52,737 nt of DNA from an uncultured Elusimicrobia bacterium (GTDB lineage Bacteria > Elusimicrobiota > Elusimicrobia > Elusimicrobiales > UBA9959): positions 1 through 52,737 of the forward strand of contig CAIPTO010000143.1 of assembly GCA_903867985.1 (NCBI GenBank), given 5' to 3'. Positions 25,080-27,839 of the stretch are shown piece by piece. Below the pieces are notes generated by a model that was given only the letters and a program-made list of their open reading frames with translations, searched no databases and was not told where the DNA came from. Both the position numbers and the translations under genes were made by a program. How positions within the stretch are numbered: the first letter of the stretch is position 1; each line of letters opens with the position of its first letter.

Positions 25080-25676
25080 ATGAAAAAAATAATTATATCC
25101 ATTGCGGCGTTGACATTTCTTGGCGCGACGGCATTCGCCTCCAACTATCCCCTCGATTATATGAACCAGAGCGCGGTAGCCATAACAGCCGGCCCGGCGA
25201 TCCTGGTGGAAGTTAACACCATGCAGAGCGGCTACAAGTATGTCATCGGATATAAGAAATCCGGCTTACTGGCCGGCAGGGCTGACCACGTGAACGCCTA
25301 TGTAAAGATCTACTACAAACTGACGGCAATTAACGGGCAGTGGTCCTCCCCGCTGACGGCGGAAAAACAGATAAAATTGACTCCCGAATGGAACGGCACC
25401 GGCTATGTCAGCGGCGAACTGTCGCAATACACCAGCTATGGCAACGACGGCCTCCTCTTTGTTCCGGACAGCGCGCTCTCACAAAACATGGTGGAAATTG
25501 AGAAGATAGAACTGGCATTCAACGTGAACGGCCAATGGGACTCCAACTACAGCGCTAATTACACCATCTCGACCAGCACACTCTACCGCGTGGGAGAAAG
25601 GTTTAAATCCGGCTACGTCTCTTCGAACATCGCAACTGACACCTGGAACTTTATAGTCAGCATGATGCGCAAATAG
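25080..25676 (+). CDS. Exported protein of unknown function, beta-rich
   Basis: 198 residues with a classic signal peptide (MKKIIISIAALTFLG... cleavage after AFA, residue ~20). The mature part is rich in Tyr, Ser, Asn and alternating strands (YKYVIGYKKSG, VNAYVKIYYKL, IEKIELAFNVNG), suggesting an all-beta, perhaps immunoglobulin-like, periplasmic or surface domain. It has no Cys. I do not recognise the family. AGGAG precedes the ATG. A strong terminator follows, so it is a single-gene unit. Confidence 0.82.
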   Translation: MKKIIISIAALTFLGATAFASNYPLDYMNQSAVAITAGPAILVEVNTMQSGYKYVIGYKKSGLLAGRADHVNAYVKIYYKLTAINGQWSSPLTAEKQIKLTPEWNGTGYVSGELSQYTSYGNDGLLFVPDSALSQNMVEIEKIELAFNVNGQWDSNYSANYTISTSTLYRVGERFKSGYVSSNIATDTWNFIVSMMRK

Positions 25677-25707
25677 CGGATTTAAAACCCCGGGGGTTTA
25701 TATTTAC

Positions 25708-25743
25708 ACGACGACAACCATCCTTTGGTTGTCGTCGTTTTTT
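25708..25743 (+). terminator. Rho-independent terminator
   Basis: A perfect 13-bp stem (ACGACGACAACCA / TGGTTGTCGTCGT) with a 5-nt loop, followed by TTTTT. It ends the transcript of the exported protein. The interval 25744-25877 after it shows no gene. Confidence 0.95.
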
Positions 25744-25877
25744 ACGGGGGGGAAATATCAGTTTTGTAACAGCCTGTTTAAGAGGTCCGCATGAAGCGCA
25801 ATCCTGAATTTTTATCCCTTCGGGGGAGCTGCGCGGGGGAAATATTTTTACCCGCGCGAAAAAACTTACACGTGCGG

Positions 25878-26234
25878 TTATTCTTTCCCGGCCGGCAACT
25901 TTCGCAGAAGCGGCGTCATCGCTTCAAAAGCCGCTTCCGCCCAGCTTTTGGCTATAGGCAACGCGGCGGGAAACCAGTAATGCACACCATCTCCGCCTTT
26001 TGCAGGATATTTTGTCACCAGCGTGCTGTCAAAGCAGGTGCAGAAAGGCGTAACGGCTTTATACGTAAGCTGGAGCACGCGCGGGATTTTTTCCCGGCCA
26101 TTGCGGGCGTCCGGCATGGTTATCCAAAAACAGCTTGCGCCGGAGTCTGAAATCTTCTTAACAAGCTTCTTCCAACCCGTAACGTATTTTACCGACAGAA
26201 GGCAACTGTCGGGCGCTCTGGCGTGGAAAGCGGG
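25878..26234 (-). pseudogene. N-terminally truncated SGNH-hydrolase-like remnant
   Basis: On the minus strand, directly after the TGA of the HTH gene and in the same frame, about 118 codons read as coherent protein. They include GWKKLVKKISDSGASCFWITMP, a helix-rich middle and GGDGVHYWFPAALPIAKSW. The DGVH group matches block V (DxxH) of SGNH/GDSL hydrolases. The block I GDS strand that carries the catalytic Ser is absent, since its place is taken by the HTH gene. The first ATG (26117) would yield only 79 residues; no ATG, GTG or TTG precedes it after the TGA. I read it as a decayed fragment. A functional short protein cannot be excluded. Confidence 0.5.
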
Positions 26235-26519
26235 TCAATCCCAGCCCATCTCGTCCATGGAATCCTTTCGCGGAGGCGTCTCTTCGGTGATGACCGGACT
26301 AGGGGGCGGCGCACTTTTTAAAACTTTGCGCGGAGGCGGAACAGCAGACTGCAAAGCGACAGCCGGCAACTCAAGCGCGGAGGCTGGAACGGCCCAATTG
26401 CGACCTATTCGGATTGCCGCCAGTTGCCCCTTCTTCACCCTCTTAAATACCGCTATGCGTGAAACACCCATTATAACTGCGGCCTCTGGTAAAGAAAGAA
26501 ATTCTTTTTTTTCAGGCAT
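26235..26519 (-). CDS. Small excisionase/MerR-type HTH DNA-binding protein
   Basis: 94 residues. Residues 5-48 form an HTH_17/excisionase-type winged helix (LSLPEAAVIMGVSRIAVFKR... AAIRIGRNWAVP). The rest is Pro-rich and disordered (PPPRKVLKSAPPPSP, ending DEMGWD). A longer frame opens at GTG 26552, but that codon lies inside an operator repeat. ATG 26519 has GAGG 9 nt upstream and is therefore preferred. Two copies of GTTAAC-N4-GTTAAC flank its promoter, which suggests self-repression. No recombinase or phage gene is adjacent. Confidence 0.78.
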   Translation of the reverse strand: MPEKKEFLSLPEAAVIMGVSRIAVFKRVKKGQLAAIRIGRNWAVPASALELPAVALQSAVPPPRKVLKSAPPPSPVITEETPPRKDSMDEMGWD

Positions 26520-26544
26520 AATCCAGTCCTCGCACAATATCCCA

Positions 26545-26560
26545 GTTAACACAAGTTAAC
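26545..26560. promoter_or_regulatory. Operator 1: GTTAAC-N4-GTTAAC
   Basis: Two 6-bp palindromes separated by ACAA, 10 bp centre to centre, so both face one side of the helix. The site lies just downstream of the -10 element, over the expected transcription start of the HTH gene. Confidence 0.7.
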
Positions 26561-26566
26561 TAGAAT

Positions 26567-26595
26567 ATTATACGCTAAAAAGCCGAAAGAAGCAA
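26567..26595 (-). promoter_or_regulatory. Promoter of the HTH gene
   Basis: On the minus strand TTGCTT (26595-26590), a 17-nt spacer and TATAAT (26572-26567). Operator 1 begins 6 nt beyond the -10 element. Confidence 0.6.
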
Positions 26596-26633
26596 ATTGT
26601 TATATACGGTAATCTTTAGAGCACGAACCATTG

Positions 26634-26649
26634 GTTAACACATGTTAAC
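26634..26649. promoter_or_regulatory. Operator 2: GTTAAC-N4-GTTAAC
   Basis: The same double palindrome with spacer ACAT, 89 bp from operator 1 and upstream of the promoter. The pair could allow looping or serve a divergent promoter. The remaining gap to 26840 holds no gene that I can see. Confidence 0.7.
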
Positions 26650-26840
26650 ATGGAACTTCAGCCACCCAACCATGATGGATAAAAATCCGGCAGGCCACCA
26701 ACCTCGACAATCCACCCACCGCCCTTGGAAAACCGGCAAATGAGACGGCTAAAGACGCGACATTATAATTAAATATCAGGACTAAAATTTATATACTATA
26801 TGGCATAAGGGCGCCGCGGCATACCGGCGGATCAACCACA

Positions 26841-27839
26841 ATGAAGATTTTAATATTAGGCGGAACGAGCTTTTTCGGCAGGGAAACCGCCATATCTCTT
26901 TCCGACGGCGGCCACGAAGTAACGGTATTCTCTCGGCGCTGCCCCGCAGACGGGCTGCCTCTTGACATCACGCAGAGCCGCGGAGACAGGACCGTGGAAA
27001 TAGACCTGGCCCGAATGGCCACTCAACCGTGGGACGTGATAATTGACAACATCTGCCACACGGCGGACGACGCCCAAAAAGCCGTGCGCGTATTCAACGG
27101 CAGAACAGGTTTATATATTTTCACCAGCTCCGCCTCGGTCTATTCCACCCTGCAGGGAGCCTCCGCCCCTTTCAGGGAGATACAGACCGAACTGCTTCCG
27201 GTCAGGACCGACATGAAGGACAAGCCTTATTACGCCTACGCCTCCGCCAAATACGCGGCTGAAAAAGTATTCGTGAACGCTTTTCTGGAAAAAAAGTTCC
27301 CCGTAGTAATAATCAGGCCGCCGGTAGTCATCGGCCCGGGCGACCCCACCCTGCGCGCCTATTCCTATTGGCTGCGGCTTAGCGACGGCGGCCAGCTTAT
27401 CCTGCCAAACCCGGCGGTTTCGGCCAGGTATATTTTTTCCAAGGATCTGGCCAGAGCCTTTGCACTACTGATCGACAGCCAAAACCTTTACGGGCAAACC
27501 CTCAACCTGGGCGACGCAACGGTTATAACACTGGAAGATTTCATAAAGATCTCCGCGCGCATACTGCATAAGGAGGCCAAAATAACGGTCCCCGACCACG
27601 CCTGGCTTAAATCCGGCGGTTTCAATTTTGCGGCCTCGCCTTTTTCCGGGGCTTCGGATTTTATAGTTGACATCTCGAAAGCGGAAAAGGCGCTGGGTTG
27701 GCGCTCCACTGAAATGCACGCCTGGCTAGAAGAGACCATCAACTGGTTCTTTTTAAAGTATCTGGGTCCGATGCCGGCAAACTACGCGTCCAGAAAAAAA
27801 GAACTGGAACTGGCTGACCGCTGGAAAGCGAGGGCGTAA
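26841..27839 (+). CDS. NAD-dependent epimerase/dehydratase (extended SDR)
   Basis: 332 residues. The Rossmann motif is GGTSFFGRETA at the N-terminus (a variant of GxxGxxG), with D/R-binding loops after strand 2 (VFSRR). The SDR catalytic set follows: Ser-Ser-Ala-Ser (FTSSASVYS), then YYAYASAKYAAEKV (YxxxK). The IIRPPVVIGPGDPT stretch and the C-terminal substrate domain are typical. It resembles the CSP41/isoflavone-reductase-like subgroup more than GalE. Likely a nucleotide-sugar enzyme, but the substrate is unknown. kdsC follows 11 nt later on the same strand, suggesting a shared sugar/envelope theme. Confidence 0.85.
   Translation: MKILILGGTSFFGRETAISLSDGGHEVTVFSRRCPADGLPLDITQSRGDRTVEIDLARMATQPWDVIIDNICHTADDAQKAVRVFNGRTGLYIFTSSASVYSTLQGASAPFREIQTELLPVRTDMKDKPYYAYASAKYAAEKVFVNAFLEKKFPVVIIRPPVVIGPGDPTLRAYSYWLRLSDGGQLILPNPAVSARYIFSKDLARAFALLIDSQNLYGQTLNLGDATVITLEDFIKISARILHKEAKITVPDHAWLKSGGFNFAASPFSGASDFIVDISKAEKALGWRSTEMHAWLEETINWFFLKYLGPMPANYASRKKELELADRWKARA

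Follow-up and report, generated by a model that had tools for sequence, protein, structure and literature searches.

A probable antitoxin-type winged-HTH autorepressor with paired GTTAAC-N4-GTTAAC operators and no adjacent toxin gene in a family of Elusimicrobia

Organization of the locus

The stretch of DNA analysed here (the window) comprises 52,737 nucleotides from an uncultured Elusimicrobia bacterium. It contains a gene for a small HTH protein with two copies of the double palindrome GTTAAC-N4-GTTAAC upstream, followed by a divergently transcribed epimerase-like gene. The range 26235-26649, which had been singled out in an initial annotation, takes in the HTH gene as well as both sites. 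The features of the locus are as follows.

26235 to 26519, minus strand: HTH gene, 94 aa, with ATG at 26519 and stop at 26235-26237; the orthologues have this start in common
26238 to 26258, minus strand: residues 88-94, MDEMGWD, the C-terminal tip; the Pro/Ala-rich tail that it closes has low model confidence
26373 to 26501, minus strand: winged-HTH domain (residues 7-49), supported by AlphaFold, Foldseek and invariant alignment columns
26545 to 26560, no strand: proximal operator GTTAACACAAGTTAAC (spacer ACAA), at the position where the HTH transcript is expected to start
26567 to 26572, minus strand: predicted -10 box of the HTH gene, a perfect TATAAT read by eye
26590 to 26595, minus strand: putative weak -35 box TTGCTT, called from the sequence, with a 17-nt spacer to TATAAT
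26634 to 26649, no strand: distal operator GTTAACACATGTTAAC (spacer ACAT), 89 bp from the proximal operator
26841 to 27839, plus strand, divergent: NAD-dependent epimerase-like gene (PF01370, 3e-15), a conserved neighbour

A longer HTH reading frame (26235-26552, minus strand) opens at a GTG at 26552 inside the proximal operator, and the orthologues support the ATG at 26519 as the predicted start in preference to this GTG. Since TATAAT ends 6 nt before the proximal operator, this operator would cover the expected transcription start (about +1), and the distal operator lies 89 bp upstream of it (start to start), which is the arrangement the initial annotation had described. The putative -35 box fits the consensus at 3 of 6 positions. 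A generic scan for consensus promoters did not list the HTH promoter and returned one plus-strand site, for which shuffled sequences average 1.2. Of the family loci (see below), 12 of 50 have a perfect TATAAT whose end is 0-9 nt from the proximal site that follows, and a -10 box matching at least 5 of 6 positions precedes the proximal site in 18 of 50 as against 6 of 47 for the distal sites. The predicted promoter is called from its -10 box and from a conservation that is itself modest. No structured RNA in Rfam matched positions 25600-26900 at the gathering threshold.

Past the stop codon of the HTH gene, the same frame continues as an open 118-aa stretch (25881-26234, minus strand) which had no NCBIfam match, no Pfam match for its last 79 aa and one weak PHROG match (0.15); the three further genomes of the genus contain nothing that matches it. 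Perhaps the stretch is what is left of a gene.

Rarity of the operator

Exactly two exact matches to GTTAAC-N4-GTTAAC are present in the draft genome (147 contigs, 2,618,646 bases, 91.8% complete), and both are the sites in the window, at 26545-26560 and 26634-26649. Base composition of the window predicts 0.11 exact places, a chance origin of the pair was rejected, and the reversed pattern used as a control had no exact match in the same draft genome. Allowing up to one mismatch recovered the same two sites and nothing further (the control gave 1), so a hidden regulon of sites within one mismatch was rejected for this genome. In the window alone, up to two mismatches gave 3 sites, a count equalled by 10 of 100 shuffles; as this lies within chance, the case rests on the exact matches and the whole-genome count. 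The initial annotation had proposed such a genome search and regarded a site frequent throughout the genome as evidence against its reading, an outcome with which two exact matches do not agree.

The HTH protein

The AlphaFold model has block means of 81-91 pLDDT across residues 11-50, a low-confidence tail, and no long helix after residue 49. The nearest structures found with Foldseek are BldC (the top match), RdfS, Xis and RacA (rank 9), all with weak E-values of which the best is 0.021. The protein falls just below the cut-offs of HTH_17 (23.8 versus 27) and TIGR01764 (25.6 versus 28.8), and an orthologue (L068) scores above both, at 32.4 and 34.3. By profile and fold, the protein belongs to the HTH_17 or excisionase-type (BldC-like) winged-HTH proteins. 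The term "excisionase-type" of the initial annotation is supported no further than this resemblance; beyond the family, its nearest relatives are for the most part antitoxin-like genes paired with Doc.

Orthologues have in common the winged-HTH domain, a Pro/Ala-rich linker in most cases, and a tip ending in GWD. The GWD terminus occurs at 48 of 51 family loci versus none of 44 relatives outside the family, and G92, W93 and D94 are each present in at least 90% of the 49 alignment rows. The family loci lacking it are one whose gene is cut by a contig end (L110) and two from sister species (L095 and L098, in genomes G032 and G051), where the protein ends in DLDSSLL; the tip may have been lost once in these sister species. 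Conservation of the tip suggests a protein partner. A DNA pattern for genes ending in GWD found only the HTH gene, in three of the four genomes of the genus, and since it missed the HTH gene of the fourth (G002) this search was not exhaustive.

Distribution of gene and sites

The family was scanned in 59 genomes, the window's own included. The HTH gene is present in 50 of them and an exact site, anywhere in the genome, in 49. Gene and site occur together in 48, gene alone in 2 (G018 and G038), site alone in 1 (G037) and neither in 8, such that the site is found in 48 of the 50 gene-bearing genomes and in 1 of the 9 others (Fisher 1.8e-7, with no correction for relatedness). The 49 site-bearing genomes have two exact sites (35 genomes), one (12) or three (2). 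In 45 of the 50 genomes, the 260 bp upstream of the gene include an exact site; in G007, G018, G024 and G038 that interval has one-mismatch sites only, and in G009 it has neither kind. At 47 of the 51 gene loci there are two sites, neither with more than one mismatch, at spacings of 52 to 136 bp; the 51 loci come from 50 genomes because G047 supplied two contigs. Where a pair was called in the count of 46 loci, 0-40 nt (mean 10) separate the end of the proximal site from the start codon downstream. Across the whole phylum (340 genomes), 58 have an exact site, made up of 49 of the 59 family genomes and 9 of the remaining 281; among the latter, the site occurs in 3 of 11 genomes with a relative of the HTH protein (E 1e-8) and 6 of 270 without one.

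The initial annotation had named the HTH protein as the obvious candidate ligand and had read the layout as an autorepressed switch. The co-occurrence of gene and sites (48 of 50 versus 1 of 9 in the family; 6 of 270 outside it among genomes without an HTH relative) points to the same protein, and autorepression is the best reading of the locus. We infer from the sequence comparisons that the HTH protein binds the operators and represses.

Some occurrences depart from the usual arrangement. Single exact sites are also found in G007 (within a gene), on contig C132 of G014 and in G037. In G009, whose HTH gene has no site upstream, an intergenic GTTAAC-N4-GTTAAC-N4-GTTAAA run lies on contig C32 (L114, position 4242) between genes that we take to resemble a microcompartment shell protein and a PduL-type enzyme. 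One of the two G047 contigs (C325, L094) is nearly identical to the G043 locus, and since G047 also has its own copy this contig is perhaps misbinned.

Spacing of the operator pair

Spacings between the paired sites cluster near whole helical turns in the family (52, 62-63, 74, 82-85, 93-94, 102-103, 115 and 136 bp), and spacings of 70, 81 and 86-89 bp occur too. Their periodicity peaks at 10.25-10.5 bp, with R of 0.62 at 10.5 bp (n=47, two from G047). Counting one value per genus and spacing gave R of 0.46 (n=29; null 0.005, 5000 draws), and the distinct spacings (n=19) gave a null of 0.0088. When loci were paired greedily into 12 tree-independent contrasts, each of 4 bp or more, the cosine averaged 0.22 for a 10.5-bp period and 0.34 for a 10-bp period, which gives weak support for possible looping between the operators. 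The pair in the window is out of phase, 89 bp being 8.48 turns.

Doc-linked relatives outside the family

Relatives outside the family were sought by profile in named genomes, where the best 80 of 87 confirmed relatives were considered, and in the phylum as well. Contigs of family genomes were left out, and 33 of the best 80 were used (L156 and 32 of L163-L200); L156, which is assigned to Elusimicrobia by its label alone, was counted as outside the family. The resulting 44 loci are from other Elusimicrobiota, Omnitrophota, Patescibacteria, one genome labelled Proteobacteria and further bacteria. Directly after the HTH gene, a Doc/Fic-like ORF is found at 41 of the 44 loci, 39 of these having been called by a scripted motif and two (L201 and L169, whose motif begins YPF) by eye; the loci without one are L170, L178 and L191. 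Two of the Doc proteins pass PF02661, and one, the sole one tried, passes TIGR01550. Most of these relatives have the SRIAVFK region of the winged-HTH domain, and most have tails that resemble EYGETLKLLGKE; none ends in GWD. An antitoxin role for the Doc-linked HTH proteins is suggested by their gene pairing with Doc, and their C-terminal segment presumably binds Doc.

GTTAAC, the operator word, lies upstream of the family genes and of the Doc-linked relatives alike. At least two GTTAAC boxes are present within 150 bp upstream at 35 of the 43 outside loci with enough upstream sequence (fewer in the other 8), and by the same measure none of the other 63 palindromic hexamers exceeds 1 of 43. Since these loci were picked by protein and not by operator, they provide an independent link between this type of HTH and GTTAAC. 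Spacings between the boxes are mainly 10, 19 and 29 bp. The locus labelled Proteobacteria (L170, 4309 bases) has an exact GTTAACATATGTTAAC upstream, no Doc motif downstream and a tail other than GWD.

The family gene differs from these relatives in having no toxin gene next to it and a C-terminal segment unlike that of the Doc-linked proteins. A tblastn search found no Doc homologue in the window or in 56 stretches of family DNA. The wider spread of the Doc-linked form suggests that the toxin was lost in this lineage rather than gained by the others. This direction of change is tentative, as the HTH tree, built from 95 rows and 61 columns, has no root and little resolution and places two Doc-less outside relatives (L178 and L191) within the family group; labels cluster in this tree, the family group needs two changes, and its deep members adjoin the Doc group.

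Model for regulation at the locus

The reading that we regard as probable is that the gene encodes an antitoxin-type winged-HTH autorepressor with two operators at its own promoter, in a lineage that lost the toxin, kept the operator word and gained the GWD tail. The BldC/Xis-like protein would bind both GTTAAC-N4-GTTAAC operators around its own promoter. At the proximal operator, which is predicted to cover the transcription start, it would block RNA polymerase, and binding at the distal operator, 52-136 bp away across the family, would probably boost repression by cooperative contact. The wider protein family is one in which most other members found are encoded just before Doc/Fic genes and have GTTAAC boxes upstream of their own genes. 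In the lineage of the window, the toxin would have gone, and the antitoxin-type C-terminus would have been replaced by a proline-rich tail ending in G-W-D. The HTH gene is now a single-copy unit in a conserved gene order, and the recognisable sites in this genome are its own only.

It is possible, although we hold this only tentatively, that the operator pair also controls the divergent genes, namely a dUTPase where one is present and otherwise the epimerase and the genes that follow it. Such control is compatible with autorepression, the regulon then being the whole divergent region, and the epimerase-like gene is a possible second target of the operators. The epimerase cluster (c2) adjoins the HTH gene upstream at 45 of 51 family loci and is often followed by a HAD hydrolase (c0, 39 loci), presumably KdsC-like, and a DsbD-type membrane gene (c4, 33 loci; PF02683). 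In three genomes the HTH gene is found apart from the genes that normally flank it, yet sites still stand next to the dUTPase or the epimerase. In G002 (L231/L064) a single site lies 380 bp from where the epimerase begins; in G024 (L081) the full pair is next to the dUTPase, at 4.2 kb from the HTH gene; and in G034 (L118/L084), which has the HTH gene on another contig, one exact plus one one-mismatch site are next to the epimerase. However, the moved genes bear sites of their own (one in G002, one with a mismatch in G024, two in G034), and the sites persisting beside the old neighbours may only reflect recent moves. In addition, the distal site lies at a more variable distance from the divergent start (mean 153, sd 104, n=44) than from the proximal site (sd 18, n=46, of which L074 and L095 are mispaired). 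The sites left behind hint at a second role or at recent moves. A recurring AAAATTTATATACTA motif (reverse TAGTATATAAATTTT) precedes the epimerase at several family loci, for example at 26786-26800 in the window, and is perhaps the epimerase promoter.

An unlikely alternative is a role like that of RacA, in which the protein marks or tethers the origin or centromere region through the two sites and its C-terminal tip. In Bacillus subtilis, RacA has numerous sites and contacts DivIVA through a coiled coil. Its winged-HTH domain is MerR-like and, as a fold match at rank 9, resembles that of the window protein, whose conserved tip sits on a low-confidence tail. Many relatives share the origin-region setting: when ParA and ParB were sought up to 5 kb to each side or to the contig end, with a Pfam check on one member each, they were found downstream at 22 and 19 of 51 family loci, respectively, and a parS-like TTNCACGTGNAA occurs at 30 of 51, every time downstream of the HTH gene start. 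Neither the many sites nor the coiled coil of RacA is seen for the window protein. The family genomes usually have two sites (exactly two in 35 of the 49 that bear any), the window's genome has two exact sites rather than many around the origin, and no long helix is modelled past residue 49. Proximity to parAB is moreover not universal, as parAB and both parS-like sites of the window's genome are on another contig (C96) and the HTH gene and parAB of G034 are on different contigs; where it occurs, it may be inherited gene order.

It is very improbable that the HTH protein continues to act as an antitoxin, one that neutralises a Fic/Doc protein from another part of the genome. Fic-domain matches do occur in 44 of 59 family genomes, with three in the window's genome, but they are mostly in long frames (350, 370 and 437 aa for those three), and G002, G003 and G010 are among the genomes that have the HTH gene and no Fic match. 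The two short Doc ORFs examined (G036 and G039) follow an unrelated 75-aa ORF, AbrB-like by eye with no Pfam match, and have no GTTAAC in the 600 bp upstream; moreover, the antitoxin-type C-terminus is gone from the HTH protein. A further case, in G016, is a 332-aa frame.

Finally, that the protein is the excisionase of an element with the sites as its binding arms, as weak profile matches (TIGR01764 at 25.6 against a cut-off of 28.8; PHROG excisionases at 0.0014 and weaker) and the Xis and RdfS fold matches might suggest, is extremely improbable given that the gene is single-copy in a conserved order throughout the bacterial family, that its relatives stand before Doc genes, that the sites frame a promoter, and that a PF00589 search found no tyrosine integrase nearby, with none on the 52.7-kb contig of the window and six elsewhere in the draft genome. 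For tyrosine integrases, this agrees with the absence of nearby mobile-element genes noted in the initial annotation.

Comparison with known systems

The HTH-Doc pairs of Elusimicrobiota, Omnitrophota and Patescibacteria resemble the window gene in having an HTH with an SRIAVFK or SRIAVYK region and GTTAAC boxes upstream of the HTH gene. They differ in that they retain Doc and an EYGETLKLLG-type C-terminus and have boxes mainly 10, 19 and 29 bp apart, whereas the window gene lacks Doc, encodes a GWD tail and is accompanied by two 16-bp sites at a spacing of 89 bp. As for the head-to-tail binding of direct repeats that marks the BldC family, boxes at a 10-bp spacing fit a direct and an inverted reading alike, GTTAAC being itself palindromic.

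Passages of PMC5859096 describe BldC of Streptomyces as a small MerR-like winged-HTH protein without a classical dimerisation domain, a pleiotropic regulator that binds variable AATTXXXX(C) repeats about one helical turn apart. The window protein, for which BldC is the top Foldseek match, is likewise a small MerR-like winged-HTH protein without a classical dimerisation domain; its candidate site, unlike the variable ones of BldC, is fixed and unique in the genome.

That MerR-like HTH proteins can be predicted antitoxins is already known, and orphan antitoxins have been discussed in print. In the PIN-MerR toxin-antitoxin pairs, as passages of Makarova et al. (2009, PMC2701414) present them, the predicted antitoxin is a truncated MerR-like HTH, as here, and the toxin, unlike Doc, is PIN; the partners named for Fic/Doc in those passages are AbrB, Xre, Phd and YhfG. 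In the titles and abstract beginnings of the open literature searched, neither a GTTAAC-regulated HTH-Doc pair nor a toxin-free, GWD-tailed relative of one is described.

Implications

The locus would be an example of an antitoxin-like gene that has outlived its toxin and become a fixed part of the chromosome, with an operator word that can be traced over several phyla even as the gene next to it and the tail of the protein change. The operator code, an SRIAVFK-type HTH together with GTTAAC, could guide the search for Doc-linked pairs in uncultured phyla and their testing, and the conserved C-terminal tip is a further yield, as a lead to a partner. It is conceivable, although rather unlikely, that the toxin-stripped repressor with its GWD docking tip is a locus-specific adaptor through which a partner, such as a membrane protein or one that organises the chromosome, is recruited to a single chromosomal point. 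If this were true, that point would be the single operator place, which in many relatives is beside the centromere (parS-parAB) region, and a former antitoxin-type repressor would have become a household protein of a bacterial family.
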